From the NCBI RefSeq assembly GCF_002848135.1, contig NZ_PKGB01000003.1, positions 1 to 64,000 on the forward strand: a DNA stretch of 64,000 nt, in the 5' to 3' direction. Numbering within the stretch: the stretch's first letter is position 1; the number at the start of each line of letters is the position of its first letter. Shown one piece after another: positions 3,879 through 64,000 of the stretch. Position numbers and translations under genes: made by a program. Below the pieces are notes generated by a model. That model was not told the DNA's origin and did no database searches. It saw nothing but the letters and a program-made list of their open reading frames with translations. The stretch is from Hydrogenovibrio sp. SC-1. Lineage in GTDB: Bacteria > Pseudomonadota > Gammaproteobacteria > Thiomicrospirales > Thiomicrospiraceae.

Positions 3879-3914
3879 CTGCTAAAAATGACCAGGCCTG
3901 GTCATTTTTAGCAG
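3879..3914. repeat. 36-bp perfect palindrome around ACCAGGCCTGGT (copy 1)
   Basis: The arms of 18 nt are exactly complementary with no spacer. The core ACCAGGCCTGGT is at 3891-3902 and the outer arm is CTGCTAAAAATG. It lies 29 nt after the dsbD stop, so in RNA it would form a strong hairpin at the end of the dsbD message. It may act as a terminator, although the T-run lies inside the arm rather than after it. Same core as seven other sites in the window. Confidence 0.85.
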
Positions 3915-7477: not shown

Positions 7478-8767
7478 TTAGGTGTTAGAGTAATCGTTTT
7501 GCATTTCGGTAAGCTGTTTTATGGGGTGTGGTTTACTAAGAGCGATCAAAACCCATAAACCTGATAATAGCATCATTATTCCGACAAAGTAAAAAGGCCA
7601 AATAATCGATTCTGTATAAATTGCGATAACCCCCATTAATAAAGCGCCTAATGCATAGCCAAAATCTCGCCAGAAACGATAAATGCCAAGAATACTTGCA
7701 CGAGACTTGGGTTCGCTGATATCGGCAACAGCGGCACCTAAGGTCGGGTAAAGCATGGCCATGCCAAAGCCCATCATGCCGGCTAGGATTGACCAAGCGA
7801 GGGGCGTTTCAACCCATACAAATCCGAGACTGGCGAAGGCGCAGAGCCAAAAACCACCAACAATCAAGCCTCGTCTGCCCCATTTATCGGATAAGGGACC
7901 GGTAATCAGTTGAGAAGCGCCCCATACTACACCATAAATAGCGATAATAGCACTGGCTTGAACCAAGGTTTGGGCTTGATTGAGTAAGTAGATGGGCATA
8001 AACACCCACACGAGAGCATCGATGAATTTTTCGACCAGGCCTGCTTGGTTTAGCGCCACTAATTGGGGGTATTTTAAGCTGGCAGAAACCATCATCTTTT
8101 TCAGTGGGACGGTTTCCATGGGAGAATCTTTGTTGAGCGTCTTTTGATGGTTTTGTTGATGGCGTTGTGCCCAGCGCTGGGTATCAATAACCTTCCATAT
8201 GGCCAGCCCTAATCCTAATCCAATAGTCGTTAAGCCAAACCCCAGTATGGCTTCGCGTGAACCATAGTGGTCAGCTAAAGCAGCGGTTACCCAACCGGCG
8301 ATGCCAACCGCCGCGTAACCTGAAAATTCATTAAGCCCATTGATCAACCCTTTTTGATGCGCATGTGCTAAATCCAATTTGCTATTCAGTGCCATCGACC
8401 AACATAAGCCTTGGTTGATACCCAAAAACACCATTGCCCAGATAATCCACCACCAAGATTGCGCAAAGAAGATCAGTAGTGGGACAGGAAGGGCGAATAG
8501 CCAGCCTGAAATCAGTAGAGATCGCCGTCCATATTGGTCGCTTAGGCGACCAGCCAGTAAATTCATAGTGGCCTTCACCAGTCCAAAGACGACCACAAAA
8601 AGGGAGAGGCTTAAAAAGGCCTGTCCGGCAAGCCCAAACTCCGTTTCTGCCAAACCTGGGACAAGGGTCCGTGTCATACCAATGGTTAGTCCAACTAGAA
8701 ATACTTGGAAGAGTTGCTGGCTAATTTGCGGTAGGTTTGCACGAATCCCGTGATGGATACGAGGCAT
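7478..8767 (-). CDS. MFS transporter
   Basis: 429-residue inner-membrane carrier with about 12 hydrophobic segments in two halves, separated by a basic loop near residue 200 (RWAQRHQQNHQKT). The MFS loop motif appears as GRLSDQYGRRSLL in the first half and GPLSDKWGRRGLI in the second. The pattern suits a drug or metabolite exporter; the substrate cannot be read from sequence. The start has TAGGA 7 nt upstream, and a promoter with an overlapping palindrome lies just before it, so the gene and the hydrolase behind it are probably controlled by a repressor. Confidence 0.85.
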   Translation of the reverse strand: MPRIHHGIRANLPQISQQLFQVFLVGLTIGMTRTLVPGLAETEFGLAGQAFLSLSLFVVVFGLVKATMNLLAGRLSDQYGRRSLLISGWLFALPVPLLIFFAQSWWWIIWAMVFLGINQGLCWSMALNSKLDLAHAHQKGLINGLNEFSGYAAVGIAGWVTAALADHYGSREAILGFGLTTIGLGLGLAIWKVIDTQRWAQRHQQNHQKTLNKDSPMETVPLKKMMVSASLKYPQLVALNQAGLVEKFIDALVWVFMPIYLLNQAQTLVQASAIIAIYGVVWGASQLITGPLSDKWGRRGLIVGGFWLCAFASLGFVWVETPLAWSILAGMMGFGMAMLYPTLGAAVADISEPKSRASILGIYRFWRDFGYALGALLMGVIAIYTESIIWPFYFVGIMMLLSGLWVLIALSKPHPIKQLTEMQNDYSNT

Positions 8768-12744: not shown

Positions 12745-13893
12745 TTATGGAGTCATGAAATGCTCAAACCCTAAGTGATGTAAGGTTTGATCGAATTTTT
12801 TGGATGGGCTTTTGTAGAGGGAATGTTGGTGCCATTCGCGTCGCAAGGGATAATGGCGTCGGTAACTTTCGTAATTGCTTTCAAAATCCTCTGTCAAGCC
12901 ACTGCGAAGAGCTAGGTCATCTTCTTCTGGACGATAACAGTGCCGCAGTGTTTGATATAAATCGGTTTCTAAGTGCCCCGAGAAGTCAATTTTAATCGGA
13001 TCAGGGGCGCTGGGTAAATGAGATCGCCATAACTGACTTGGCGAGATCTGCCAATGATTACATAGAGATTGGTAGACCATTTCACTGCCAGCAATTTTGG
13101 CATCTAGCGAGTGGCCAGCAATGTGTGGCGTTGCAATATTGGCCACGTTGTAGAGTTCTTGAGAAATATTCGGTTCATTTTCCCAGCAGTCAATAATATT
13201 GACTAAGGTTGGCGTTTGACACCATTGAGCTTCATTAATAATGCCGCCTCGGGCTGCGTTTATTAGGATTTGTTGTGGGGTGATATGACGCAGTCTTTCC
13301 TCCGAAATAAGATCAACCGTGGCATCTGAACCAGCCTCATACTGAGTTGTTAAAGGTGTATGGACGGTAATAATATCAGCCGTTAACGCCGTTTCTAAAT
13401 CGACAAAGCCAGTGTCGCCAGTATGTCTTTGTCGCGGGGGGTCATTTAATAAGCATTTCATGCCCAAAGCTTGTGCTTTTTGAGCGACGCCTTGTCCGAC
13501 ATGGCCGACACCAATAATGCCTAAGGTTTTTGAAGCTAGAGAAAATTCTTTGGTATACGCAAGATTCACGAGATTGGTAATAATGTATTCCGCTACGGAA
13601 TTCGCATTGCACCCTTGCGCTGAATAAAAGGGAATGCCTTTTCGTCTAAGGTACGGTTGATCAATATGGTCGAGACCGACAACGGTACTGCCGACAAAAG
13701 AAATTGAGGTGCCCTCCAGTAGCTTAGCATTCACTTGGGTGCGGGAACGCACAATCAGCGCATCTGCATTTTGAAGGTCTTGTCGCGTAATTTCTCGTCC
13801 AGGACGGAGAATCACTTGACCAAGAGGGGAAAAAATGGCTTCAGCATAGGGGATGGCATCGTCAATAACCAAGGTTTTATTTGGGTGGTTCAT
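12745..13893 (-). CDS. pdxB: erythronate-4-phosphate dehydrogenase
   Basis: NAD-dependent oxidation of 4-phosphoerythronate in the DXP-dependent pyridoxal phosphate pathway. The 382-residue protein starts MNHPNKTLVIDDAIPYAE, near the E. coli length (378). The D-2-hydroxyacid dehydrogenase fold shows VGSTVVGLDHID, the Rossmann motif GIIGVGHVGQGV, HTPLTT, NAARGGIINE with the catalytic Arg, and TPHIAGHS with the catalytic His. The C-terminal PdxB dimerisation domain (DFSGHLETDLYQ) is present. An upstream in-frame start at 14004 would overlap the divergent hydrolase gene, so 13893 is chosen. Confidence 0.95.
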   Translation of the reverse strand: MNHPNKTLVIDDAIPYAEAIFSPLGQVILRPGREITRQDLQNADALIVRSRTQVNAKLLEGTSISFVGSTVVGLDHIDQPYLRRKGIPFYSAQGCNANSVAEYIITNLVNLAYTKEFSLASKTLGIIGVGHVGQGVAQKAQALGMKCLLNDPPRQRHTGDTGFVDLETALTADIITVHTPLTTQYEAGSDATVDLISEERLRHITPQQILINAARGGIINEAQWCQTPTLVNIIDCWENEPNISQELYNVANIATPHIAGHSLDAKIAGSEMVYQSLCNHWQISPSQLWRSHLPSAPDPIKIDFSGHLETDLYQTLRHCYRPEEDDLALRSGLTEDFESNYESYRRHYPLRREWHQHSLYKSPSKKFDQTLHHLGFEHFMTP

Positions 13894-13995
13894 GGAGATC
13901 TCTAGGTGATATGAAGTTGGTTCGCCTCTATAATACCAAGTCAAAGACAACTTTGCATAAACAGGGCGAGATTTACATTTAAAGTAGGACTGAAA

Positions 13996-14601
13996 ATGAA
14001 GCAATTAATTGACGGAGCCGCAGGCAAACTCCAGATTAGAATGACCAGGCCTGGTCATTCTTCATCTGCTAAATGGGTGGTATTAAGTCATCCGCACCCT
14101 CAGTTTGGCGGTACTATGAATAACAAGGTGATTACGACCCTAGAACGCGCCTTTCAACGTTTAGGCTATGGCACTTTGAGTTATAACTTTCGAGGGGTTG
14201 AAGCTTCGGAAGGTCATTATGATGGTGGAGAAGGGGAACAGCAGGATTTAGCGTCACTGGTAACATGGCTTCGTCAGACTGAAAGTGTGTCCCATATAAC
14301 CTTGGCAGGGTTTTCATTTGGCAGTTATATTGCACTCAAACAAGTTGAGCACTTAAAAGCGGATGCGATATGCACTGTGGCACCGCCTGTGTCGATGATG
14401 GATTTTTCATCAATTGCACCTAAAGTACCTTGGGTATTAATCCAGGGGGGGCAGGATGAGGTTATCGATTCGAAGGAGGTTTTGGATTGGCTTTGGCATT
14501 TACCTAAACAGCCGGATGTCTATTGGCGAGCAGAAGCCAGTCATTTTTTTCATGGGCAGTTGGTTTGGCTAAAAAAAGTGATTGCGATGGCGTATCATTA
14601 G
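13996..14601 (+). CDS. alpha/beta hydrolase of the COG2945 type
   Basis: 201-residue cytosolic hydrolase without a signal peptide. The family hallmark HPHPQFGGTMNNKV (32-45) provides the oxyanion region. The nucleophile elbow is GFSFGS (S107). Acid and base candidates lie in GGQDEVID and EASHFFHG. Substrate unknown. Codons 15-22 (RMTRPGHS) are encoded by a 24-bp perfect palindrome of the ACCAGGCCTGGT family, including the rarely used AGG arginine codon. The gene is divergent from pdxB and stands alone. Confidence 0.8.
   Translation: MKQLIDGAAGKLQIRMTRPGHSSSAKWVVLSHPHPQFGGTMNNKVITTLERAFQRLGYGTLSYNFRGVEASEGHYDGGEGEQQDLASLVTWLRQTESVSHITLAGFSFGSYIALKQVEHLKADAICTVAPPVSMMDFSSIAPKVPWVLIQGGQDEVIDSKEVLDWLWHLPKQPDVYWRAEASHFFHGQLVWLKKVIAMAYH
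14038..14061. repeat. 24-bp perfect palindrome around ACCAGGCCTGGT, inside a gene (copy 2)
   Basis: The core is at 14044-14055 with arms AGAATG/CATTCT. It is fully within the coding sequence of the COG2945 hydrolase and read in frame as MTRPG. The arms differ from those of copy 1 but are still exactly complementary. Confidence 0.85.
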
Positions 14602-31879: not shown

Positions 31880-32827
31880 GTGCATAAGCAACAATCTGGT
31901 TTTATTATGATGGTATTGGTGGTTATTATGGTCATTGGTGCCACTGCTTATTTTGGTGGTTTTGGTGAGAATCTAATGTTTCATCAGAAAGCCAAACTGG
32001 CCGAACGTGATATTGCGAACACCTTGAAAATTAGAGAACAGCTTTTACGTTATGCTATTTTTCAGCCAGAGCTATACGAAAGTGACCCAACAGGCGGAAC
32101 GGGTTATGCACTAAAAACCTTGGATACTATTCCAGCTCCTGGCTATTTACCTTGTGTGGATCTAGATGGAGATGGAGAAGTGTTAGCAGCGGAAACCAGT
32201 TGCGGTAATCCAACCGTATCTGGAGATGACACGACGGGATTTGTGGTGGGTTTTTTACCGACCGATTTTAGAACCCGAAATATTTTCTTTGGCGGGGCTG
32301 TGCCTAAACAGTTTTATTATGTTTTAGATGAACGTTTTGCGAATGGGAATAATTTGTATCACAATGGTTCGACTGGACGATTTGCTCCGCTCAATCCGGA
32401 TACTCTGCCGCAAGGACGTTTGAATTTAAATGGTCGAGAAGGTTATGTTGCTTTAATCATTGCTCCTGGTGAGCCCATTACGATGCAGGATGGGACAGTG
32501 CAGGATCGATCGCAAGCTGGCGATGCCGTAGTTCGAATAGTAGATTATTTAGATAAGCGTTTTGATGACTCTGGAAATGAAATTAATGGCAATGCCGATG
32601 GTGATCGGTTTTTTTTCAGTCAGGCTAAAAATAATTTGGGAATTAATGACACCATTATCGGTATTTCGTTTCAGGAATGGCAAGCTGAAATGCTTAATCG
32701 AGTCTGTTCTCAAAAAGCGCGTTTAGAAGCAATCGACTCGTCTGAGGCTTTTTGGTTTAATGCCTACAATGAAATTGATAATCCAGCCGGTTCCGATTGG
32801 CGTGCCTTTATGGGTGGGTGTCCGTGA
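31880..32827 (+). CDS. minor pilin-like protein without Glu5
   Basis: 315-residue protein with a type IV pilin-like N-terminus: a short basic leader (HKQQSG) and a hydrophobic stretch IMMVLVVIMVIGATAYF. The Glu at mature position 5 is missing, as in PilX- or GspK-like minor pseudopilins. The body has PGYLPCVDLDGDGE, a cysteine plus calcium-loop-like motif that recurs in the next two gene products. Start is GTG 31880, about 9 nt after GAAAGG. Its stop overlaps the next start by one base, so it heads a pseudopilin operon. The role is unknown. Confidence 0.65.
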   Translation: MHKQQSGFIMMVLVVIMVIGATAYFGGFGENLMFHQKAKLAERDIANTLKIREQLLRYAIFQPELYESDPTGGTGYALKTLDTIPAPGYLPCVDLDGDGEVLAAETSCGNPTVSGDDTTGFVVGFLPTDFRTRNIFFGGAVPKQFYYVLDERFANGNNLYHNGSTGRFAPLNPDTLPQGRLNLNGREGYVALIIAPGEPITMQDGTVQDRSQAGDAVVRIVDYLDKRFDDSGNEINGNADGDRFFFSQAKNNLGINDTIIGISFQEWQAEMLNRVCSQKARLEAIDSSEAFWFNAYNEIDNPAGSDWRAFMGGCP

Positions 32828-33687
32828 TGTCTGATAGCAAACAGCAAGGGGTTACGTTGGTAGAAATATCTTTAGCGCTGTTGCTGATTGGTATCTTGAC
32901 CACGGGAGCACTTACGTTAAACGGGGTATTTAGACAGTTAACCAAAGCTGAAGAAACGAAAGAACAAATGGCTCAAATTAAAATGGGGTTGATGAGTTAT
33001 CTTAAGGTGAATCGCTATCTACCCTGTCCAGATACGAACTCCGATGGTTTAGAAGATAGAAGAATCAGTATGGGGGTGTCTGTTTGTCAGTCTCGACAGG
33101 GGACATTGCCCTATCAATCGTTATCGGTCAGTGATAAAGACGCTTGGGGCTCCCCTTTTTATTACAGGGTGAATCCGCGCACTGAGCAAAGCCAACGAAT
33201 AAATGACTTGTGTGAAACCGCAAGCATTTTTGGATATTCAGGTGCTAGAGTTAGACCGGATTCATCAGCTATGTGTGAAAAAAACGGTGTATTTTATTGT
33301 GATAAGTGTGGGGATGTCTGCAGCGGATCATGTGAATACAATACCGATGTCAGGCAAAACGATTCGCCGCCCTATTTTAGTCTTCATACGCCACCCAAGG
33401 GCGCTGAAAATGCGGACGGTTACAAAAACATGTTAGTGCTTAATGAGCAAGGTGCCGAATTTGAGAATGCTATCGTGGTGATGGTGGTTTCTTTTGGCAG
33501 CAATGGAACTCAAACATGGCTTGATTGTGAACAGGCTACGTCAACCGCCAGTCCTGAACGTCAAAATTGTGATAATGACTCGGCGGGGGTCTTTCAAATT
33601 GATACCTCTGATTATTTAGATGACTATCTGGCTTGGATAACCTTGCATGATGTTAAGCAAGCAATGATTGATGTGAGAGGGTTTTAA
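32827..33687 (+). CDS. pseudopilin with N-terminal methylation motif
   Basis: 286-residue prepilin: leader MSDSKQQG, then VTLVEISLALLLIGIL with Glu at mature position 5, so a PilD-type peptidase should cut after the Gly. A helix follows, then NRYLPCPDTNSDGLEDRR and a cysteine-rich part (CDKCGDVCSGSCEYN). The start overlaps the previous stop (TGATG). It is directly followed by a paralogue with the same YLPCPDTN motif. It is much longer than a major pilin, suggesting a minor tip or secretion-related pseudopilin. Confidence 0.75.
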   Translation: MSDSKQQGVTLVEISLALLLIGILTTGALTLNGVFRQLTKAEETKEQMAQIKMGLMSYLKVNRYLPCPDTNSDGLEDRRISMGVSVCQSRQGTLPYQSLSVSDKDAWGSPFYYRVNPRTEQSQRINDLCETASIFGYSGARVRPDSSAMCEKNGVFYCDKCGDVCSGSCEYNTDVRQNDSPPYFSLHTPPKGAENADGYKNMLVLNEQGAEFENAIVVMVVSFGSNGTQTWLDCEQATSTASPERQNCDNDSAGVFQIDTSDYLDDYLAWITLHDVKQAMIDVRGF

Positions 33688-35070
33688 ATGGTAAAGCGTC
33701 AAAGAGGTTTTTCATTGGTTGAGTTGGCAGTCGTCATGGCTATTATTGGTATTATCAGTGCAGGGCTAATGCTGTCGCTTAGTGGTCAAAGGGATGTCGT
33801 TAAGTCCTCCGACTCACAAAAGACGTTAGCGCAAATTAAAAAATCTTTATTGGCATTTGAGTTGGTAAATCGATATCTACCTTGTCCAGACACGAATGCA
33901 GATGGAGTTGAAAACAGAACGAATAACGCCTGTAGTGCAAGTTATGGGGGGGTGCCATTCCAAGATTTAGGCTTGAGTTTAGCGGATGTTCAAGATAGTT
34001 ACGGGGTCGCTATTCGTTATGCAGTAAATCAAGGCACGACAACGCTTGCAAATATGCAAGACGTAGGGCATTCAGCCAGTTATTTTTGTAATTTAGGCTG
34101 TAGCATTGATGGTGCTTTGCCAGCTTTTAAGTTAACAACGCCGCCCTTAGTAGGGAATTTGGGCTCAGGCAATTTTACCATTTGTCATCCTTCTGCCACG
34201 GCCTGTACATCGGGTGCCATTAGTAGTCAATATTTAGCAGATGGATTATCCATTTTATTAGTTGCATATAATGCGAATGGACGTCAACTGGCTGCAGGTT
34301 GCTCGGGACTATCAGTTAGAGAAGCTGAAAATTGCGATACGGATTTGCTCTATTGGGATTATTTTTTGACTAAAAACGCACAAAACTATTTTGATGACCA
34401 ACTTTTGGGGATTTCTGGTTATGAAATTAAACAAGAATTGCTCAAAAATGATTCAACTGCTTTGAATTCGGTCGGGTCTGGCAATAACGGTTCAGAAGAT
34501 AACTCATTGGTCACGCCACCACCTGTCCCTACTAACCCAGACACCACCATTATTGGTGATTATAATGATGCCAGTCAATACACACCACTCAGCGGGAATC
34601 GTGATGATTCGGTTAAAATTGAGGGGAGTTTAAATGCACCTTTGGATTTAAATAATGGTGATAATGACTTGACGGTAGAGGGGGATCAGAATGCATCAGT
34701 GGTGGTCGGGTCGGGTATCGATAATTTGTATATTACTGGTGATGCTAAATCAACTATTACCTTGGGTCCAGGCAACGACTTTTTGACCCTTATGGGGGAT
34801 TTAACGGCATCTGGATCTATTACCGCTAGTAGTGGGGATGACTTTGTATATGTGGCGGGAAATGTATTAGGTGCAATTGATTTAGGTTCGGGCAACGATC
34901 AGCTGCGAGTGGATGGGGATTTAAATCATGCCATTGAAGGTGGGCCCAATACAGATGTCATTTATGTCAATAAAACCCCAGCGGAATGGGGTGCTTCGGG
35001 CCAAATTGCTTATTTGAACGGGTTTGAACGGATTCGTTTTAATGATGGGACGGATCAAGATTTGCCCTAA
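33688..35070 (+). CDS. pseudopilin with RTX-like beta-roll tail
   Basis: 460-residue prepilin: leader MVKRQRG, then FSLVELAVVMAIIGIISAG with Glu5. Residues about 50-250 are paralogous to the previous protein (NRYLPCPDTNADGVENR). After a Pro/Ser-rich linker (about 265-290) comes a repeat domain (about 323-428) with six units of 18-20 residues. Each carries a GxGNDxLxV-type motif, for example GSGIDNLYI, GPGNDFLTL and GSGNDQLRV, which resembles the calcium-binding RTX nonapeptide. The fusion of a prepilin to an RTX-like solenoid is unusual. It starts 1 nt after the previous stop. Confidence 0.75.
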   Translation: MVKRQRGFSLVELAVVMAIIGIISAGLMLSLSGQRDVVKSSDSQKTLAQIKKSLLAFELVNRYLPCPDTNADGVENRTNNACSASYGGVPFQDLGLSLADVQDSYGVAIRYAVNQGTTTLANMQDVGHSASYFCNLGCSIDGALPAFKLTTPPLVGNLGSGNFTICHPSATACTSGAISSQYLADGLSILLVAYNANGRQLAAGCSGLSVREAENCDTDLLYWDYFLTKNAQNYFDDQLLGISGYEIKQELLKNDSTALNSVGSGNNGSEDNSLVTPPPVPTNPDTTIIGDYNDASQYTPLSGNRDDSVKIEGSLNAPLDLNNGDNDLTVEGDQNASVVVGSGIDNLYITGDAKSTITLGPGNDFLTLMGDLTASGSITASSGDDFVYVAGNVLGAIDLGSGNDQLRVDGDLNHAIEGGPNTDVIYVNKTPAEWGASGQIAYLNGFERIRFNDGTDQDLP

Positions 35071-35192
35071 AATACAGGTAATCTTCAGTCCAGGTTATGT
35101 AAAATAAATTATTAATAATTTCTTCTTTTTATTTGTTATTAAGAATCGCTATACTATATCCATCTCATTACAAAAATTAATGGAGAGATGTT

Positions 35193-35753
35193 ATGAAAAC
35201 TTCGAGTCAGAAAGGGTTTACACTGGTTGAAATAGCTATAGTCCTGGTTATTATTGGCCTGTTACTTGGTGGTGTGTTAAAAGGACAAGAATTAATTGCT
35301 AGTGCAAAAACAAAAAATATTCATAATGATGCTCAAGGCATTATTGCGGCTATGTTGACCTATCAAGATCGGTATGGTGTTTTGCCAGGGGATGATGATT
35401 CTACAGCTATCGCCACAGCAGCTTCAACCCAAGGAAATGGCAATGGAGAGCTGGAGGATGCTGAAAGTGATGCATTTTTTGAACACTTGCGTGATGCGGG
35501 ATTGTTGAAAGGTGAAGGAACCACTTTTCCGACGCATTCTTATGGCGGAACCATTGAATTAGATGAAGATGCTTATACCAATGCTCAAGGCAATAACCTA
35601 TGTTTTATGGGAGTTCCTGGAGAAGCAGCGGATGTCGTTGATCGTCAAAATGATAATGGTAATCCAAGTACGGGGTCAATTCAGTCTGACAATGCTGCAA
35701 CGACTTATACGGTTGATGGCACCACGACTTATGATTTGTGTTATAAGTTATAA
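35193..35753 (+). CDS. type IV pilin-like protein
   Basis: 186-residue prepilin: leader MKTSSQKG, then FTLVEIAIVLVIIGLLLGGVLKG with Glu5 and a typical pilin helix (AKTKNIHNDAQGIIAAMLTYQDRYG). The C-terminal part is acidic and holds two cysteines (NNLCFMGV, YDLCYKL) that could form the pilin D-loop disulfide. It resembles small pseudopilins rather than PilA. It has its own Shine-Dalgarno sequence (GGAGAG), is separated from the previous gene by 122 nt, and is followed by a terminator. Confidence 0.8.
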   Translation: MKTSSQKGFTLVEIAIVLVIIGLLLGGVLKGQELIASAKTKNIHNDAQGIIAAMLTYQDRYGVLPGDDDSTAIATAASTQGNGNGELEDAESDAFFEHLRDAGLLKGEGTTFPTHSYGGTIELDEDAYTNAQGNNLCFMGVPGEAADVVDRQNDNGNPSTGSIQSDNAATTYTVDGTTTYDLCYKL

Positions 35754-37445: not shown

Positions 37446-38414
37446 TTGACACCACTGCAAACGATACAGTTTCAATTAACGCCTGAAGATAATGCGGCTT
37501 TAGCCAATTTATGCGGTTGGCAATCGGAGCACCTTTCGCAGTTGGAACTGCGATTAGGTGTGGAGATTAACCATCTTGGCTTTCAGTTTAGTGTGACAGG
37601 CTTGGCAGATCGACTTGTTAAGACTGAGCAATTGATTCGAGACCTCTATCAACAGGCACACAATGAATCTTTAGATCCTTCGCAAATACATTTGGCACTT
37701 CAAGCGATTGGTTGTTTTGAAGATCAGGTTGTTGAGCCCACGCAGAAGCTGATTAAAACCCGAAAAAAAGTGATTAAAACCCGCAATGCTAACCAATCCA
37801 ATTACATCCAGTCCGTTGAAGATTGCGATGTGAGTTTTGGTATTGGTCCAGCGGGAACGGGCAAAACGTATTTGGCTGTGGCTACCGCAGTTGCGGCACT
37901 CGAATCGGAGCAGGTTCGACGCATTATTTTGACGCGCCCAGCGGTTGAAGCAGGTGAAAAACTGGGGTTTCTACCAGGCGATTTGAGTCAAAAAGTCGAC
38001 CCCTATTTGAGGCCCTTGTTTGATGCCTTGTTTGAGATGCTTGGTTTTGAAACGGTTGAGCGCTTGATTGAAAAGCAGGTCATTGAAATTGCGCCTTTGG
38101 CCTTTATGCGTGGCCGTACTTTAAATGATTCATTTATGATTCTAGATGAAGCACAAAATACCACTGTTGAACAGATGAAAATGTTTTTAACTCGGATTGG
38201 TTTTGGTTCCAAGGCAGTGGTCACAGGGGACATTACCCAATGTGATTTGCCTAAACATCAGAAGTCGGGTTTGCGTCATGTGATTGAAGTTTTAGAAGGG
38301 GTGCCTGATATTGGGTTTACATTTTACCAGTCTCAGGATGTGGTTCGGCATCAGTTGGTGCAAAAAATTGTCCAAGCGTATGATCAGTTTGATCGACGAA
38401 AGGAAAGGCCATGA
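37446..38414 (+). CDS. ybeZ: PhoH-like ATPase (YbeZ)
   Basis: 322-residue PhoH family ATPase, a partner of YbeY in rRNA and RNA metabolism. The KH-like N-terminal part (LGVEINHLGFQFSVTG) precedes the ATPase domain: Walker A GPAGTGKTYLA (about 134-144), RPAVEAGEKLGFLPGDLSQKVDPYLRPL, Walker B FMILDEAQN. It aligns with E. coli YbeZ along its length. No in-frame ATG precedes TTG 37446, so a TTG start is likely, which would lower translation. A dyad AATTTC-ATT-GAAATT lies 54 nt upstream. The gene overlaps ybeY by ATGA. Confidence 0.95.
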   Translation: MTPLQTIQFQLTPEDNAALANLCGWQSEHLSQLELRLGVEINHLGFQFSVTGLADRLVKTEQLIRDLYQQAHNESLDPSQIHLALQAIGCFEDQVVEPTQKLIKTRKKVIKTRNANQSNYIQSVEDCDVSFGIGPAGTGKTYLAVATAVAALESEQVRRIILTRPAVEAGEKLGFLPGDLSQKVDPYLRPLFDALFEMLGFETVERLIEKQVIEIAPLAFMRGRTLNDSFMILDEAQNTTVEQMKMFLTRIGFGSKAVVTGDITQCDLPKHQKSGLRHVIEVLEGVPDIGFTFYQSQDVVRHQLVQKIVQAYDQFDRRKERP

Positions 38415-38890
38415 TTCATTTAAATTATCAAATTGCAGTTTCAGATGAGCAAGCAAAAGCGTTGCCGACAGAAGCTGAAATGCTAAATTGGATTGATGCA
38501 GCCATGCTGGATGATCGGCGAGATGGCGAGACGGAAATTGCCTTGAGGGTTGTTGAGCCTGAAGAAATCCAAATGCTGAATCGTGACTATCGAGGGAAGG
38601 ATAAAGTAACCAATGTATTGTCTTTTCCGTTTGAAATGCCACCAGGCCTGGTCGATTTAGGGGAAGAATTACCTTATTTAGGCGATTTAGTTATTTGTGC
38701 AGCGCAAGTCGCGCAAGAAGCTATTGATCAGCAGAAGTCGTTAAAAGCACATTGGGCGCATATGGTAATACATGGTTGCTTGCATTTACAGGGATATGAC
38801 CATATAGATGACGACGAAGCGAATGAAATGGAAACGTTGGAAGTGGATATTTTAGCTGAACTCGGGTTTTTATCGCCTTATGAAAATTAG
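38411..38890 (+). CDS. ybeY: endoribonuclease YbeY
   Basis: Zinc-dependent RNase for 16S rRNA 3'-end maturation and ribosome quality control. 159 residues. The metal site HGCLHLQGYDH (HxxxHxxxxxH) is near residues 120-130, and the family motif NVLSFPFE is present. It overlaps the previous gene by 4 nt. The codons for PPGLV in a variable loop contain an exact ACCAGGCCTGGT (38641-38652). Confidence 0.96.
   Translation: MIHLNYQIAVSDEQAKALPTEAEMLNWIDAAMLDDRRDGETEIALRVVEPEEIQMLNRDYRGKDKVTNVLSFPFEMPPGLVDLGEELPYLGDLVICAAQVAQEAIDQQKSLKAHWAHMVIHGCLHLQGYDHIDDDEANEMETLEVDILAELGFLSPYEN
38641..38652. repeat. ACCAGGCCTGGT palindrome inside ybeY (copy 3)
   Basis: Exact 12-bp core with no symmetric extension, read as (P)PGLV in the loop between NVLSFPFE and LGDLVIC. 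Confidence 0.8.
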
Positions 38891-44579: not shown

Positions 44580-44582
44580 TTG

Positions 44583-45170
44583 ATGAAGTCCCGCCATAAA
44601 AATAACCAGGCCTGGGCGTTTTTAATGGCTAAGTCGCTACTGTTGTCAGTGTTGGTTGCCTCCTTAATGGCTTGCGGGTTTCATTTAAAAGGCATGGGTC
44701 CCAATGCGAAAGCCTCTTTTCAGTCAGTCTATTTAGCAAAGACCACGGGTGTTCGGGCGGATGCGCTGAAAACCTTTATGCAATTACTAAAGGCCTCGGA
44801 TGTCAAAGTGGTCGATTCTGTCGCTTCGGCTGAACTTTCAGTGTCGCTTGACGCAACCGTTTATGAGGTTTCTCGTACCAGTATGTCTGGGCAAGGCGAT
44901 ACCACTTCAGAACTGTTGAAAATGAGCCAAACTGTCAGTGTACAAAGAGTGGCAACTGAAACCCTACTGATGACGGCAACGGTGAACAGTTATCGAGATC
45001 GCCGCATTGAAACGGCAGCGGCTTTAGGGTCCAGTCGCGAATTACAGGATATTCAACAACAAATGGCGTTTGATGTCGCCAATCAGTTGATTGACCGAAT
45101 CAATCGTGCGTATCAATTAAAACAGCCATCAAAACCAACGCAAGCTAAGGATCAAGGTGAACAGCCATGA
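44583..45170 (+). CDS. lptE: LPS-assembly lipoprotein LptE
   Basis: Outer-membrane lipoprotein that plugs LptD during LPS insertion. 195 residues with lipobox LMAC (C31) followed by GFHLKGMG, the typical CGFHL start. The conserved part has YLAKTTGVRADALKTFMQLL and TVNSYRDRR. The leader is longer than usual, and codons 7-11 (NNQAW) overlap a variant of the ACCAGGCCTGGT palindrome. It sits between leuS and holA as in E. coli and overlaps holA by ATGA. Confidence 0.93.
   Translation: MKSRHKNNQAWAFLMAKSLLLSVLVASLMACGFHLKGMGPNAKASFQSVYLAKTTGVRADALKTFMQLLKASDVKVVDSVASAELSVSLDATVYEVSRTSMSGQGDTTSELLKMSQTVSVQRVATETLLMTATVNSYRDRRIETAAALGSSRELQDIQQQMAFDVANQLIDRINRAYQLKQPSKPTQAKDQGEQP
44605..44616. repeat. 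ACCAGGCCTGGG, one-mismatch copy in lptE (copy 4)
   Basis: 11 of 12 bases match the core. The outer arms (AAAAAT/GTTTTT) are partly complementary, so it looks like a decayed longer palindrome. It is read as NQAW, a frame different from the hydrolase and ybeY copies. Confidence 0.7.
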
Positions 45171-46180: not shown

Positions 46181-46214
46181 GGGTCGCAATCAAGTTGTAA
46201 TGAGAGGATTAAAC

Positions 46215-47486
46215 ATGACAGATGAATTGAATCAAGATATCAAAGCTTATATGCAAACCTTGGGGCAACAGGCTCGTAAAGCCTCTCGCCAATTAGTGAG
46301 CGCATCCACCGCACAAAAGAATGCGGCGTTGGAAGCGATTGCAACAACACTTGAACAGAAAATGGCTTGGTTGATTGCTGAAAATCGTAAGGATTTAGAA
46401 CAGGGCGAAGCCAATGGTTTAGATGCAGCGATGCTGGATCGCCTTTCCCTCACTGAACAAGGCGTGGCGGCAATGGCTGAAGGCGTAAGACAGATAGCGG
46501 CTTTAAAGGATCCGATTGGTCAAATTTCGGATATGAGTTATATGCCTTCCGGAATTGAAGTGGGCAAAATGCGCGTTCCGCTTGGGGTCGTGGGGATTAT
46601 CTATGAATCACGGCCTAATGTGACCATTGATGCGGCTGCACTCTGCTTAAAATCGGGGAATGCGGCTTTATTGCGTGGTGGTTCGGAAGCGGCACATTCA
46701 AATCGTGCTTTGGCGGCCTGTATTCAAGAGGCAGTGACTAAAGCGGGATTGATGGCCGAAGTAGTGCAAGTAGTTGCGACCACGGATCGATCGGCAGTCG
46801 GTGAAATGATTACCATGCCGGATTATGTCGATGTCATTATTCCTCGCGGTGGCAAAGGGTTGATTGAACGGATTAGTCAAAGTGCGCGCGTCCCGGTCAT
46901 TAAACATTTAGACGGCATTTGTCATGTGTATATTGACCAAGATGCGGATGCTGAAAAGGCTGTGCGCGTTGCCTTTAACGCCAAAACCCACCGCTATGGG
47001 GTTTGTAATGCGATGGAAACGTTGCTTATAGCCGAATCAAGAGCGGCTGAAATCCTACCAGGCCTGGTTGAAATGTATCAACAAAAAGGCGTGGCCTTGC
47101 GTGGTTGTGAAAAAGCGCGTGCGGTGGCTGAAATGGAAGCCGCAACCGATGCGGATTGGGCAACCGAATATTTAGCGCCGATTTTGTCGATCAAAGTGGT
47201 GTCGAATGTGGCTGAAGCCATGGACCATATCTTACAGTACAGCTCGGGACATACCGAGTCCATCATTACTGAAAATGTGACGACGGCTCGTCAATTTTTA
47301 GCCCAAGTGGATTCGAGCTCAGTGATGGTGAATGCATCTACGCGCTTTGCAGATGGCTTTGAGTATGGTCTGGGGGCTGAAATTGGTATCAGTACAGATA
47401 AGTTTCATGCACGTGGCCCTGTCGGCTTAGAAGGGTTGACGTCGCAAAAATATATTGTTTATGGTGATGGTACTATTCGTGAATAA
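46215..47486 (+). CDS. proA: glutamate-5-semialdehyde dehydrogenase
   Basis: NADPH-dependent reduction of glutamyl-5-phosphate in proline synthesis. 423 residues (E. coli 417). Conserved segments are [58 protein letters not shown], the catalytic Cys in [13 protein letters not shown], and [25 protein letters not shown] 46215 follows AGAGGA by 7 nt. The codons for LPGLVE contain an exact ACCAGGCCTGGT. The 3' end overlaps the convergent DnaJ-like gene by 14 nt. Confidence 0.97.
47057..47068. repeat. ACCAGGCCTGGT palindrome inside proA (copy 5)
   Basis: Exact 12-bp core without symmetric extension, read as (L)PGLV, the same frame as in ybeY. Confidence 0.8.
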
Positions 47487-49266: not shown

Positions 49267-49737
49267 ATGGTTATTCATTTTATTGTCGTTGGGCAAAAGA
49301 TGCCGCAATGGGTGCAAACGGGCTATGGCGAATATGCAAAACGCTTACCTGGCGCCTGTTCGCTTAAATTGGTTGAAATTCCCATGGCGCAAAGAGGTAA
49401 AAGCGGATCGGTTAGTCAATATAAGGCTGAGGAAGCCAAGCGTATTCTTGCAGCGGTGCCCAAAGGGGCAAAATTAATTGTGTTAGATGAAAACGGTCAG
49501 ATGCCATCAACAGTCGGGTTTTCAAAGAAGTTAGATGACTGGCTAGTATCGGGACAAGATATCGCGTTGGTTGTGGGCGGTCCCGATGGTTTAGATGGGG
49601 CTTTGGTGCAACAAGCCGAGTGGGTATGGGGTCTGTCTAAACTAACCTTACCTCACCCCTTAGTGCGAGTGATGGTAGCAGAACAAGTTTATCGAGCTTG
49701 GTCGTTATTGCAAAACCACCCTTATCATCGTGCTTAG
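49267..49737 (+). CDS. rlmH: 23S rRNA (pseudouridine1915-N3)-methyltransferase
   Basis: SPOUT methyltransferase acting on 70S ribosomes. 156 residues (E. coli 155). The SAM-binding knot has IVLDENGQ, LVVGGPDGLD and LTLPHPLVRVMVAEQVYRAWSLLQNHPYHRA, the family C-terminus. It starts 12 nt after rsfS. A 24-bp palindrome follows the stop codon by 4 nt. Confidence 0.97.
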   Translation: MVIHFIVVGQKMPQWVQTGYGEYAKRLPGACSLKLVEIPMAQRGKSGSVSQYKAEEAKRILAAVPKGAKLIVLDENGQMPSTVGFSKKLDDWLVSGQDIALVVGGPDGLDGALVQQAEWVWGLSKLTLPHPLVRVMVAEQVYRAWSLLQNHPYHRA

Positions 49738-49741
49738 CCAC

Positions 49742-49765
49742 AAAATGACCAGGCCTGGTCATTTT
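49742..49765. repeat. 24-bp perfect palindrome around ACCAGGCCTGGT (copy 6)
   Basis: The core is at 49748-49759 with arms AAAATG/CATTTT. It lies between the rlmH stop and the patatin start and ends 11 nt before the Shine-Dalgarno sequence of the patatin gene. It may form the 3' hairpin of the nadD-rsfS-rlmH message; the T-run is short. Confidence 0.85.
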
Positions 49766-49788: not shown

Positions 49789-50682
49789 TTGAGTGAAAGA
49801 GATGTTGTGACACAATCCAACAAAACGGTTTCTTTGGTCTTAGGCAGTGGCGGTGCCAGAGGGATGGCGCATATTGGCGTTATTCGTTGGTTGGAAACGC
49901 ATGGATATCAAATTCAATCTATCTCAGGATCTTCGATTGGCGCACTGGTCGGCGGGATTTATGCAGCTGGTAAGTTGGGTGCCTTTGAGGAATGGATGCT
50001 GAAAATGGATAAAGTCGATATCCTAGGGTTATTGGATTTGGCGTGGCAGCGAAATGGCTTAGTGAAGGGTGAAAAATTGATGAAATCTCTCTCTGAGTTA
50101 ATCGGTGATGTTCAGATTAAAGAGTTGCCCATCGCTTTTACCGCCGTAGCCACTGATATTGCTCGTCAACGGGAAGTCTGGTTGCAATCTGGTCGCTTAT
50201 TAGACGCCATTCGGGCTTCCATCTCGTTACCGTTATTCTTTACGCCATACCCGTTAAATGGCGTTGATTTAATGGATGGTGGTATCTTGAATCCAGTGCC
50301 GATTGCACCAACCTTTAGTGATAACACGGATTTAATTGTCGCAGTGAGTTTAAGTGGTGACATTGAGTTGCAAGAGCCAACTTCAGCAGAACACGATGAT
50401 CAAGCGAGCTTCCTTCAGCAATTTAATCAGTGGATGCAGTCACTTCGGAGTCCGCAAACACTCGCAGACATGCGGCCTAAAGGGCTATATGAAATTGCGG
50501 ACTTAGCATTTGATGCGATGCAGAATACGATTGCTCGGCAGAAATTAGCTGCTTATCCAGCCGATGAGATGATTGAAATTGCCAGTAATGCCTGTGGGAT
50601 GATGGAGTTTGATCGTACGCAAGAAATGATTGCATTAGGCTATGAAGTTGCGGATAAAAATTTTCGAGATAAGCTAAAATAA
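49789..50682 (+). CDS. patatin-like phospholipase (RssA family)
   Basis: 297-residue serine lipid acyl hydrolase. The oxyanion loop is GSGGARG (19-25), the nucleophile elbow is GSSIG (S49), and the catalytic Asp is in DGGILNPVP (about 162). The Ser-Asp dyad is complete. No signal peptide, so it is cytosolic. The start is TTG 49789, supported by AGGAGG 6 nt upstream; the next in-frame ATG would lie inside conserved sequence. It leads a three-gene set with a PilZ-like and an unknown protein. Confidence 0.88.
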   Translation: MSERDVVTQSNKTVSLVLGSGGARGMAHIGVIRWLETHGYQIQSISGSSIGALVGGIYAAGKLGAFEEWMLKMDKVDILGLLDLAWQRNGLVKGEKLMKSLSELIGDVQIKELPIAFTAVATDIARQREVWLQSGRLLDAIRASISLPLFFTPYPLNGVDLMDGGILNPVPIAPTFSDNTDLIVAVSLSGDIELQEPTSAEHDDQASFLQQFNQWMQSLRSPQTLADMRPKGLYEIADLAFDAMQNTIARQKLAAYPADEMIEIASNACGMMEFDRTQEMIALGYEVADKNFRDKLK

Positions 50683-54168: not shown

Positions 54169-56184
54169 ATGGTTCTCGTGAGCGATACTGTACTGGCCCG
54201 AAAGTGGCGTCCAAAAAACTTTTCCGAATTAGTGGGTCAAACCCATGTCATGCAAGCGTTATCCAATGCACTGGATCAACAACGGCTACATCATGCCTAT
54301 TTATTTACTGGCACACGCGGGGTTGGTAAAACCACCATCGCTCGAATTTTCTCTAAGGCTTTGAATTGCGAGCAAGGAATGAGTTCAACGCCATGTGGCG
54401 TTTGTTCTGTCTGTCAGTCAATTGATGAAGGGCGGTTTGTTGATCTGATTGAAGTGGATGCGGCCTCGAAAACCAAGGTCGAAGATACCCGAGAATTGTT
54501 GGAAAATGTTCAGTACGCACCCGTTCAAGGTCGATACAAAGTATATTTGATTGACGAGGTGCACATGCTCTCTAAGAGCAGTTTTAATGCTCTGTTGAAG
54601 ACGTTAGAAGAGCCGCCTGAGCATGTTAAATTTTTATTAGCGACCACCGATCCGCATAAATTACCGATGACGGTCTTGTCGCGCTGTTTGCAATTTAATT
54701 TAATGCGGCTGACGCAAGTCCAATTACAACAGCATTTAGCGTTTATTTTAACGCAAGAAGCAATCGCCTTTGACGACGCAGCCTTGGCGATGATTGCTAA
54801 GAGTGCCGATGGTTCCGCGCGGGATGCGCTGAGTATTTTGGATCAGGCCATCGCTTATGGGGCTGGTGAAGTTCAGCATGCCGCTGTTCAGGCGATGCTT
54901 GGCTTGGTCGATCAGCAGTTTACCTTGGCCATTTTACAAGCCTTGGCACAAGATTCTGCGGAAGGCATAAAACAAGTCGTGAAGCAACTAGCTGCACTTG
55001 GGGTCGACTATGTTGCCTTAAATGCGCAACTCATTGAAAGCTTGCATTCCTTGAGCCTGATTCAGGTGTTAGGCGACGCTGGTGAAACGGCGATTTTAGA
55101 GACCGACACGCTTCAAACGCTTGCCGAACAACTTGCACCTGAGCGTGTACAGATGTGTTATCAAATTGCGCTATTGGCAAAACAAGATATGGCGTTGGCT
55201 CCCGATATCCGCATTGGTTTTGAAATGGCATTGCTTAGAATGTTGGCATTTCAACTGGCGGAAGGTGATCCCGAGCCGTCTAAAATGACCAGGCCTGGGC
55301 AAAATTCTGTTCAAAATACGGGGCAAGAAGCACCGTTAACCCAGCCAATGAATGCTGCTGTGAATTCAGTGACAATTCCTTCGGCTCCGCCGCAGCCCAT
55401 GGCCGAGCAAACCTTGCCTGCTTCAGAATCCGTTTCCTCTCAGCCAAACCAACAAGCTGTCAGTGCTCAGCAACCGTCAGTGCAGATGGTAACGGAGGAT
55501 GATCCAATTCAAGCCTTGAAAAAGCAATTAGCCGCCACTTTAGGTGGTGCGGATGAAAAAAAAACGTCTGCTAACGCACCCAAGGTCCCGCCAAAAACAG
55601 CGGCTATTCAAGAAAGTCAGCATAATGTTGCGCCAGAGATGGCTGCTGCAGAACCTAGCCATTCATTTGACGCTCAGCCGATAATGGAGCAGGCGATTGC
55701 GCCGCAATCAGATACCAGTTCGCATCTTGAGCAAACCGTTTCTTCGGATGTCGTATGGGAGCCTGACCTGTCTGCATCGCAATTGCAAGACACAGGACAG
55801 CCGCATCCAACCATTGAAAATTGGTTACAACTGATTGTCGAATTGGGATTAGAGGGCATGGCTGCAGAATTAGCGCGACAGTCTATTTTAGTTCGTCAGA
55901 CTCCACAAGTATTGACTTTGAGTGTTGATCCTGCTCAGGCACAGGTGGCTTTAACCGAGTTGGCTTTTCAACGGTTAGAGGAGCAGGTAAAAGCCCAGCT
56001 TGGTTGTCGATTGGAGTTTGAACAGGCATCAGGACCACACTGGACCCCTGCAAAACAATCAGCCTCTGATAATGAAATGCGTCAACAGCAGGCAAGAACG
56101 GCTATCGAGCAGGATGCCAAAGTACAAGCTTTTAAACAAACTTTGAATTTAAATGTAATTGAATCGTCGATTCAACCAAAATAA
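54169..56184 (+). CDS. dnaX: DNA polymerase III subunits tau and gamma
   Basis: Clamp-loader ATPase. 671 residues (E. coli tau 643). Start region VLARKWRPKNFSELVGQTHV; Walker A GTRGVGKTTIAR (about 48-55); zinc cysteines in CGVCSVC; DEVHMLSKSSFNALLKTLEEPP; sensor 1 TTDPHKLPMTVLSRC. Residues about 370-535 are a variable Gln/Pro/Ala-rich linker, followed by the tau-specific C-terminal domain. The linker contains an A9 run with features of a -1 frameshift site (about 468-residue product) and a variant ACCAGGCCTGGG copy. It precedes ybaB and recR. Confidence 0.97.
   Translation: MVLVSDTVLARKWRPKNFSELVGQTHVMQALSNALDQQRLHHAYLFTGTRGVGKTTIARIFSKALNCEQGMSSTPCGVCSVCQSIDEGRFVDLIEVDAASKTKVEDTRELLENVQYAPVQGRYKVYLIDEVHMLSKSSFNALLKTLEEPPEHVKFLLATTDPHKLPMTVLSRCLQFNLMRLTQVQLQQHLAFILTQEAIAFDDAALAMIAKSADGSARDALSILDQAIAYGAGEVQHAAVQAMLGLVDQQFTLAILQALAQDSAEGIKQVVKQLAALGVDYVALNAQLIESLHSLSLIQVLGDAGETAILETDTLQTLAEQLAPERVQMCYQIALLAKQDMALAPDIRIGFEMALLRMLAFQLAEGDPEPSKMTRPGQNSVQNTGQEAPLTQPMNAAVNSVTIPSAPPQPMAEQTLPASESVSSQPNQQAVSAQQPSVQMVTEDDPIQALKKQLAATLGGADEKKTSANAPKVPPKTAAIQESQHNVAPEMAAAEPSHSFDAQPIMEQAIAPQSDTSSHLEQTVSSDVVWEPDLSASQLQDTGQPHPTIENWLQLIVELGLEGMAAELARQSILVRQTPQVLTLSVDPAQAQVALTELAFQRLEEQVKAQLGCRLEFEQASGPHWTPAKQSASDNEMRQQQARTAIEQDAKVQAFKQTLNLNVIESSIQPK
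55288..55299. repeat. ACCAGGCCTGGG, one-mismatch copy in dnaX (copy 7)
   Basis: The left arm (AAAATG before the core) matches copies 1 and 6, while the right arm has diverged. It is read as TRPG, using the AGG codon, in the linker region that tolerates change. Confidence 0.75.
55542..55574 (+). promoter_or_regulatory. candidate frameshift or slippage site of dnaX
   Basis: AGGTGG (55542-55547), a run of nine A (55556-55564) that in frame reads GAA AAA AAA, and a -1-frame TAA at 55572-55574. This matches the E. coli arrangement of an SD-like element about 10 nt before a slippery A-run and an early -1 stop. The product would be a gamma-like protein of about 468 residues. A weak stem CCGC/GCGG lies downstream. 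Confidence 0.6.
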
Positions 56185-62639: not shown

Positions 62640-62671
62640 GATGAAAACAACCAGGCCTGGTTGTTTTCATC
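62640..62671. repeat. 32-bp perfect palindrome around ACCAGGCCTGGT (copy 8)
   Basis: The core is at 62650-62661 with arms GATGAAAACA/TGTTTTCATC, differing from copies 1, 2 and 6 yet fully complementary. It lies 9 nt after the zf-CHCC stop, directly before the shared terminator hairpin. Confidence 0.85.
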
Positions 62672-62682
62672 GATTGTAGATA

Positions 62683-62712
62683 TAAAAAAACCCGCAAAAG
62701 CGGGTTTTTTTA
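62683..62712. terminator. bidirectional terminator between the zf-CHCC gene and glnA
   Basis: AAAAAAACCCGC-AAAA-GCGGGTTTTTTT has a T-run on both strands and serves the convergent ilvE/zf-CHCC and glnA transcripts. Confidence 0.9.
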
Positions 62713-62729
62713 TGGAATGCAACTTTGCC

Positions 62730-64000
62730 TTATGCAGAGTAGTACATATCAAACTCAATTGGGTGAGTTGTCGCACGCATACGAGTAACTTCTTCCATTT
62801 TAAGGTTGATGTAGGCATCAATCGCTTCATCTGTAAAGACACCACCTGCTTTAAGGAAGTCGCGGTCTTTATCTAATTCATCAAGTGCTTCTTCAAGTGA
62901 TGCACAAACAGTTTTATACGTAGCTTCTTCTTCAGGAGGAAGATCGTATAAATCTTTCTCAGCAGGCTCGCCTGGATCAATTTTATTTAAGATTCCGTCA
63001 AGGCCGGCCATTAATGAAGCTGAGAAGGCTAGGTATGGGTTGGCTGTTGGATCAGGGAAGCGTAATTCAACACGACGAGATCTTTCTGAAGGCGCATACG
63101 GAATACGAATAGACGCAGAACGGTTTGAACCAGAGTAAGCTAATAAGATAGGCGCTTCGAATCCTGGGACAAGGCGCTTATAAGAGTTAGTTCCTGGGTT
63201 GGTGAATGCGTTTAGTGCGCGTGCATGCTTCATTAGACCACCAATATACCAAAGTGCTTCTTGGGATAGGCCTGAGTACACATCACCCGCAAAAATATTC
63301 TTGCCATCTTTAGAAAGAGACTGGTTAATGTGCATCCCAGAACCATTGTCACCTACGATAGGCTTAGGCATGAACGTTGCTGTTTTACCCAATGCATGAC
63401 AAGTATTATGTACGGCATATTTAAGAATTTGTACTTCATCAGATTTTGCAGTCAAGGTGTTACCGGCAACAGCTAGTTCACACTGACCACCTGAAGCTAC
63501 TTCGTGGTGATGGGCTTCTAGTTTTAAGCCCATTGCTTCTGCCATCGCGCAGATGTCAGCACGGACTTCATGAAGTTGGTCAACAGGCGGAACTGGGAAG
63601 TAACCTCCTTTAACCTTAGGACGGTGTCCAATGTTCCCGCCTTCAAATACTTTCTCTGAGTTCCAAGAGGCTTCGTTACCGTCAAGTTTTACAAAACAAC
63701 CAGACATGTCGGCACCCCAGCGTACATCATCAAAGATGAAAAATTCAGGCTCTGGACCAAAGAAGGCGCTATCGGCAATACCCGTTGAGGCTAGGTAAGC
63801 TTCTGCTTTTTTAGCGATACCACGAGGATCTTTTTCATAAGGTTCCATGGTTGAAGGTTCAACAATCATGCAACGGATAATTAAGGTTGGATCGTTAGTG
63901 AAAGGATCAAGGACAAACCCGTCTGTTTGTGGCATTAAAATCATGTCAGAATTGTGGATGTTTTTCCAGCCTTGGATAGAAGAGCCATCGAAAGTTTCAC
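62730..64000 (-). CDS. glnA: glutamine synthetase, N-terminal end missing
   Basis: Type I glutamine synthetase. The C-terminal 423 or so residues are in the window; the start lies beyond 64000. The first visible residues are [18 protein letters not shown]. Conserved sites are EPEFFIFD, the ATP/Glu segments [11 protein letters not shown] and [20 protein letters not shown], and [13 protein letters not shown]. The adenylylation tyrosine is in DLYDLPPEE, so GlnE-type covalent control is expected. The terminator lies at its 3' end. Confidence 0.97.

Follow-up and report, generated by a model that had tools for sequence, protein, structure and literature searches.

A genome-wide palindromic word in Hydrogenovibrio and its relatives: a putative DNA uptake signal that appears to be reused as a transcription terminator

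Four perfect palindromes in a 64,000-nucleotide stretch of the Hydrogenovibrio sp. SC-1 genome (the window, meaning that whole stretch) are copies of a signal that recurs across the genome and is spelled differently in related species, a context that the original prediction about them had missed. At the level of sequence, we show a word that is iterated and conserved, forms dialects, carries phased A/T patches, and is put to a terminator-like use between genes. We consider it likely that the motif works like DNA uptake signals of the USS and DUS type, with uptake being putative, and that its intergenic copies have been co-opted as terminators.

RESULTS

The window palindromes belong to a genome-wide repeat

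The four palindromes had been predicted to be perfect over 36, 24, 24, and 32 bp, and each is exactly its own reverse complement (Table 1). The window contains nine copies of CAGGCCTG and eight copies of CCAGGCCTGG; perfect arms are long in the four CAGGCCTG copies named originally and short in the other five. Beyond the four, a single further perfect even palindrome with arms of at least 8 bases is present in the window, at position 35113. The longest motif-free gap in the window (14046–38642, 24.6 kb) spans porin and pilin-like genes.

Table 1. Copies of the motif in the window, in order of position, with the length of their perfect arms and their gene context.
Feature	Position	Perfect arm (bases)	Context	Remarks
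36-bp perfect palindrome	3879..3914	18	between dsbD and aroQ, both −	core 3892–3901
CAGGCCTG copy	8036..8043	4	within ORF 7478–8767 (−)	
24-bp perfect palindrome	14038..14061	12	5′ end of alpha/beta-hydrolase ORF (13996–14601 +)	
ACCAGGCCTGGT copy	38641..38652	6	within ORF 38411–38890 (+)	
CCAGGCCTGG copy	44606..44615	5	5′ end of LptE-like ORF (44580–45170 +)	imperfect 18-base arms surround
ACCAGGCCTGGT copy	47057..47068	6	within ORF 46200–47486 (+)	
24-bp perfect palindrome	49742..49765	12	between rlmH (49267–49737 +) and patatin-like gene (49789–50682 +)	
CCAGGCCTGG copy	55289..55298	5	within dnaX (54169–56184 +)	
32-bp perfect palindrome	62640..62671	16	between convergent ilvE (end 62388 +) and glnA (62730–63944 −)	

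The 36-bp palindrome has its centre 47 bp beyond the dsbD stop and is predicted to form a terminator hairpin, followed by ACTTTTTT on the minus strand. The first of the two 24-bp palindromes lies just upstream of pdxB (12745–14004, minus strand) and may be coding, because the Pfam match of the hydrolase begins at residue 11. Adjoining the 32-bp palindrome, between ilvE and glnA, is an ordinary terminator-like inverted repeat (62682–62713).

In the whole genome (G000; 2,452,073 bases), CCAGGCCTGG occurs 367 times, compared with 0 times for a reversed-word control and about 0.9 times expected from base composition. Detailed tests were performed on a sample of 840,096 bases of this genome (about one third, window included), which contains 125 copies of CCAGGCCTGG and 157 copies of CAGGCCTG, compared with 6.5 copies of the latter expected from base composition; the commonest ten-mer counted in the sample is ACCAGGCCTG (163 occurrences). 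The motif is spaced near-randomly along the genome, with a coefficient of variation of 0.94. When genes are called by simple longest-ORF selection, with an approximate coding/intergenic border, 64 of the 157 copies are intergenic, 17 lie no more than 150 bp from the start of an ORF, and 76 are coding; the ORF-start copies were set apart and excluded from both the coding and the intergenic tests.

A 38-kb segment of contig C1 of the same genome (about 160–198 kb; L025, L024) is motif-free and has 37.2% G+C, compared with 42.7% for the contig stretch. It carries polysaccharide-type genes (GDP-mannose dehydratase, flippase, carbamoyltransferase) and has the appearance of acquired DNA that does not bear the tag.

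The core is flanked by phased A/T patches

The motif comprises a 12-bp palindromic core, ACCAGGCCTGGT, and A/T patches centred about 11 and about 22 bp out on both sides, coding copies included. Specifically, in the consensus of the 157 copies, taken on both strands, the core CCAGGCCTGG is accompanied by A at −6 (55% of copies), Y at −8, an A-tract from −13 to −9 (A in 78% at −12) with a mirror-image T-tract, and, at ±21 to 24, a further AT-rich patch. The AT fraction in coding copies alone (n = 76) is 0.81 at distances 9–13 (z = 14), falls to 0.48 at 14–20 (z = −5), rises to 0.66 at 21–24 (z = 5.1), and falls again to 0.49 at 25–29 (z = −3.5); intergenic copies have an additional, third AT peak around 31–33. 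Such a period of about 11 bp reflects double-stranded DNA and, in coding copies, is not a hairpin effect. For the core and the phased patches that coding copies share, it lends indirect support to protein binding, either symmetric, as proposed originally, or by half-sites.

Excess symmetry is found in intergenic copies

In our symmetry test, right halves were shuffled among copies (2000 shuffles, distances 5–20), so that the consensus is retained while any pairing of left with right halves is lost. In intergenic copies, 515 positions are paired, compared with 459.3 ± 12.8 after shuffling, a value reached in 0 of 2000 shuffles. No excess is detected in ORF-start copies (107 versus 109.1 ± 6.0; reached in 1321 of 2000 shuffles) or in coding copies (422 versus 409.9 ± 15.4; 461 of 2000 shuffles). 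The intergenic excess is weaker at distances 14–24 alone (208 versus 188.8 ± 11.7; 110 of 2000 shuffles), and the column-by-column excess is small when all 157 copies are pooled. Complete stems on both strands at distances 5–12 are present in 17 of the 64 intergenic copies, compared with 2.2 ± 1.4 after shuffling (maximum of 7 in 1000 shuffles). Perfect arms of at least 12 bases are present in 23 of the 157 copies (17 of 64 intergenic, 2 of 17 ORF-start, and 4 of 76 coding), and some reach 14–23 bases. The flank symmetry above chance on which the original prediction turned is thus present in intergenic copies but not in coding copies, and the claim that arms differ between copies and yet stay symmetric is sustained by the intergenic excess but reflects in part just the common symmetric consensus (A-tract on the left, T-tract on the right).

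Inverted copying had been suggested as a source of this symmetry. Arms that are perfect over as many as 23 bases would be in keeping with template switching (quasipalindrome correction), or with a small mobile element, acting without selection, but coding copies have no excess symmetry, copies have nothing but A/T bias in common at distances of more than about 35 bases from their centre, and orthologous sites in two close relatives (G002 and G009) are distinguished by point changes, with no gain or loss of an element. We regard this explanation as extremely unlikely. Template switching was rejected as the main cause on the evidence of the coding copies, and a mobile element was rejected for lack of a common flank outside the A/T patches. 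Given coding copies without an excess of symmetry and orthologous arms that have changed by paired substitutions, inverted copying is superfluous as a cause, although it may have served as a mutational route.

Intergenic copies are concentrated at gene ends

Only about 8% of the sample is intergenic, yet it holds 64 of the 157 copies. Within it, 24 copies lie in convergent gaps, compared with 6.8 expected by length (p = 1e-8), and 1 copy lies in a divergent gap, compared with 17.4 expected (p = 5e-8); the two kinds of codirectional gap hold 23 and 16 copies, compared with 27.8 and 12.0 expected. To work in both directions, an intrinsic terminator has to lie at a gene end, form a hairpin rich in G+C, and have a T-tract on each strand, and these are the properties of such copies. 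Features of intrinsic terminators (gene-end site, stable hairpin, T-tract) are predicted for the long-armed intergenic copies, and intergenic copies appear to be reused to end transcription. Strand bias in G-U wobble pairs, as expected for selection on RNA, amounts to 4 sense versus 1 antisense among 39 copies and is not significant.

The hairpins and T-tracts of intergenic copies at gene ends raise the alternative that the motif is simply a favoured intrinsic-terminator hairpin and has no second function. However, the 76 copies within ORFs, despite lacking excess symmetry, have the same core and A/T patches, and the asymmetric dialects of relatives (see below) occur mostly as single copies. 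A sample of 83 motifs from genomes with such dialects contains 7 close inverted pairs, fewer than expected, and this scarcity counts against the uptake-signal reading with terminator reuse that we prefer. We judge a terminator-only motif to be very unlikely.

Hairpin arms covary at orthologous gene ends

The sequence beyond the dsbD stop was compared in ten genomes, our own included. The perfect 36-mer of G000 has a counterpart with the same arms and one G-U pair in G003, a member of the same genus, and counterparts with paired changes in G009 and G002 (CCGGCC..GGCCGG) and in G008 (CGGCC..GGCCG). The hairpin is thus kept in four relatives, with arms changed on both sides in three. In three congeners (G001, G010, and G004), the hairpin at this site is formed by two inverted copies of another word, which is asymmetric (D2/D3), and G005 and G006 have neither a palindrome nor an inverted pair there. 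A second orthologous site, C1:138427, has arms CGCC..GGCG beside the core in G000, compared with CCACC..GGTGG in G005. The covariation that the original prediction proposed to look for is present at both sites. Selection for a hairpin, one of the causes it offered, is supported for intergenic copies by their excess symmetry, not seen in coding copies, by their gene-end placement, and by the covarying dsbD arms.

Gene ends were surveyed in 36 gene-by-relative comparisons at 19 sites, with orthologue identity of the neighbouring gene of at least 50%. A motif is present at most 140 bp from the stop in 14 of 36 comparisons and, in 14 of these 14, is in the dialect of the genome's own. The other 22 comparisons have no motif at the gene end, several showing ordinary terminators or no motif, and they count against the uptake-signal reading that we prefer. 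G002 and G009 are about 90% identical; of the CCAGGCCTGG sites mapped between them, 43 of 47 are unchanged, compared with only 16–28 of 43–47 control ten-mers shifted by 50–200 bp.

Related species carry palindromic or asymmetric dialects

Copy numbers were surveyed in 34 genomes of the family (own genome included) and 21 genomes of other families. CCAGGCCTGG occurs 263–747 times in 15 of the 34 family genomes, 27–37 times in 2, and 0–8 times in 17; outside the family it occurs 0–35 times, the top genome having 10 control matches. G001 and G010, which hold 0 and 1 copies of CCAGGCCTGG, contain 400 and 364 copies of CCAGGTTGGG, which occurs 0–7 times in the other family genomes and up to 19 times outside the family. 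CTGCCAGGYTGGG occurs 253, 225, and 215 times in G001, G010, and G004, and 0–1 times in the remaining 52 genomes. The full asymmetric word is AAAATCTGCCAGGTTGGGG; it has AT-rich bases again 11–12 bp farther out on the A-tract side, and the distance from its A-tract to CCAGG is that of the palindromic dialect. Related species thus have dialects, palindromic in some and asymmetric in others.

In a sample of G031, the top word is palindromic (ACCGGCCGGT), and CCGGCCGG occurs 55 times in 120 kb, with arms of at least 8 bases in 9 of the 55 copies and perfect arms of up to 15 bases; six loci of this genome (L143–L148) are loci of the separate palindromic word ACCGGCCGGT. A sample of G025 has a looser CAGGCCTG. 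Samples of G018 (100 kb) and G016 (80 kb) yielded no clear dialect word, despite the presence of ComEC and DprA, and the G007 sample (16 kb of AT-rich small contigs) was left out of dialect calls. Near 859–862 kb of C1, G009 has a CRISPR array of about 37 repeats (L175, L176); the repeat includes GCAGGCCTGGCAAATT, an uptake-like core, and ends in AATTTCTACTGTTGTAGAT, presumably as in Cas12a repeats.

Two further explanations bear on these dialects. A palindromic, species-specific binding site of a chromosome-organising or partition protein would account for the palindromic core, the near-random genome-wide spread, and the conservation between relatives. Known chromosome-organising sites are polar or clustered. 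Repeated replacement by an asymmetric word in congeners, together with terminator co-option, suits uptake dialects better, and we consider an organising-protein site quite unlikely. Alternatively, an iterated palindrome resembling HIP1 might be kept, rather than by uptake, by a DNA methyltransferase together with mismatch-repair bias. The core includes two CCWGG and one GGCC, which we take to be classical C5-methylase words. HIP1 of cyanobacteria is likewise a short palindrome iterated genome-wide and is linked to orphan methyltransferases (PMC4390886). However, C5 DNA methylase has no match in G000, nor has it one in 11 of the 15 family genomes rich in the motif, its presence in 9 of 34 family genomes is unrelated to the motif, and the long asymmetric dialects (AAAATCTGCCAGGYTGGGG) and phased A/T patches are not methylase sites. 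Maintenance by methylation is unlikely; as the main reading it was rejected on a search for the C5 class alone, one class beside the N4-cytosine and N6-adenine methylases.

Competence genes and a candidate receptor

ComEC is matched in 32 of 34 family genomes and also in 10 of 14 control genomes, DprA is matched in 22 of the 22 family genomes searched, and G000 has two PilT/PilU-family ATPases; ComEC, DprA, and PilT are widespread and therefore no proof of competence. G000 also has an MSHA-type (MshL-type) secretin scoring exactly at its cut-off, an MshE-like ATPase, a GspF/PilC-like protein, and a type II secretion set, in which GspG scores above its cut-off and a GspH-like protein below. PilQ above cut-off was found in none of 22 family genomes searched, which yielded only partial or below-cut-off secretins; a scan for the ComEA motif found nothing in the 840-kb sample (one third of the genome); and the GspH/FimT family (PF12019), searched for a minor-pilin receptor, went unmatched in 32 of the 34 family genomes.

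Pilin genes were listed for 8 genomes. The window contains a prepilin-like gene cluster adjoining miaB (31880–35753; three genes with an N-methylation motif), which has orthologues in G001, G002, G004, G009, and G010 and, in part, in G005 and G031. The pilin encoded at 35193–35753 is 60% identical in G002 and G009, which have the palindromic dialect, and 41–44% identical in G001, G004, and G010, which have the asymmetric dialect; the neighbouring MiaB is 81–86% identical in all five. This pattern weakly suggests the pilin as a candidate receptor. The dialect-like divergence stays a hint, because the pilin is only 39% identical in G005, which is palindromic.

DISCUSSION

Sequence-selective DNA uptake is known in two families only, Neisseriaceae and Pasteurellaceae, according to a 2025 account (PMC12616744). 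The motif resembles the USS of Pasteurellaceae, as portrayed in that account and in PMC1852404, in its hundreds of copies, its core with A/T patches about one helical turn apart, its dialects, and its reuse in terminators. It differs in having an unrelated core sequence (CCAGGCCTGG, with no GCGG inner core), in being palindromic, in having A/T patches to the left and right of the core, in belonging to a different family, in having fewer copies, and in being known from sequence alone. The usual USS copy number is given as 1000 or more in PMC1852404; the 367 copies found here fall below this number, which counts against uptake.

With the DUS of Neisseriaceae the motif shares species dialects and inverted-pair terminators, as given in PMC3630211, the D2/D3 inverted pairs past dsbD looking similar; inverted pairs as terminators also figure in Kingsford 2007 (PMC1852404) and Frye 2013 (PMC3630211). 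A DUS is a continuous asymmetric word of about 10–13 bases with a CTG inner core and without outer A/T patches, whereas the palindromic D1 word is interrupted and has A/T patches farther out, its core has CTG only inside CCTGG, and one copy alone makes a hairpin in the palindromic dialects. Like cyanobacterial HIP1, the motif is short and palindromic and recurs throughout the genome, both inside and outside coding sequence; unlike HIP1, it is accompanied by no C5 methylase in G000, has partly asymmetric dialects, and has phased A/T patches. Like intrinsic (Rho-independent) terminators, it has a hairpin followed by a T-tract at gene ends and a covarying stem; unlike them, it has a fixed genome-wide core in the stem, and more than half of its copies lie outside intergenic DNA.

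If the motif is an uptake signal reused as a terminator, a pilus-borne receptor would bind the core. Each half-site would probably be bound separately, since one half, the A-tract and CCAGG, is retained at the same spacing in the asymmetric dialects. Released DNA of the same species would preferentially be taken in via a retractile pilus and recombined through ComEC and DprA, and recombination of self-DNA would spread and preserve the signal, as has been argued for known uptake sequences. A single palindromic copy could offer a protein two sides to bind and could also fold into a hairpin. A palindrome flanked by A- and T-tracts is nearly a complete two-way intrinsic terminator, and gene-end copies would therefore have been co-opted. 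At gene ends, selection on the RNA hairpin would then lengthen and restore the arms through compensatory changes, giving rise to the symmetry first noticed in the window.

In the literature searched, we found no uptake experiment for these bacteria, and we know of no uptake signal that is a palindrome. Both points count against uptake, as do the G018 and G016 samples without a clear dialect word and the PilQ and ComEA searches that found nothing. Of the papers listed, none describes this word or assigns an uptake signal to this family. On balance, we lean towards the view that the motif represents a third, independently evolved system for tagging self-DNA for transformation, in Gammaproteobacteria of the sulfur-oxidiser type (Piscirickettsiaceae/Thiomicrospiraceae), with a palindromic signal bound by half-sites, switches between palindromic and asymmetric words within one genus, and use as a two-way terminator. 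If this is correct, the family would provide an independent case for the origin of uptake signals, for change in receptor specificity, and for the turning of signals into terminators, and the right word on the DNA would provide a handle for transforming these autotrophs.
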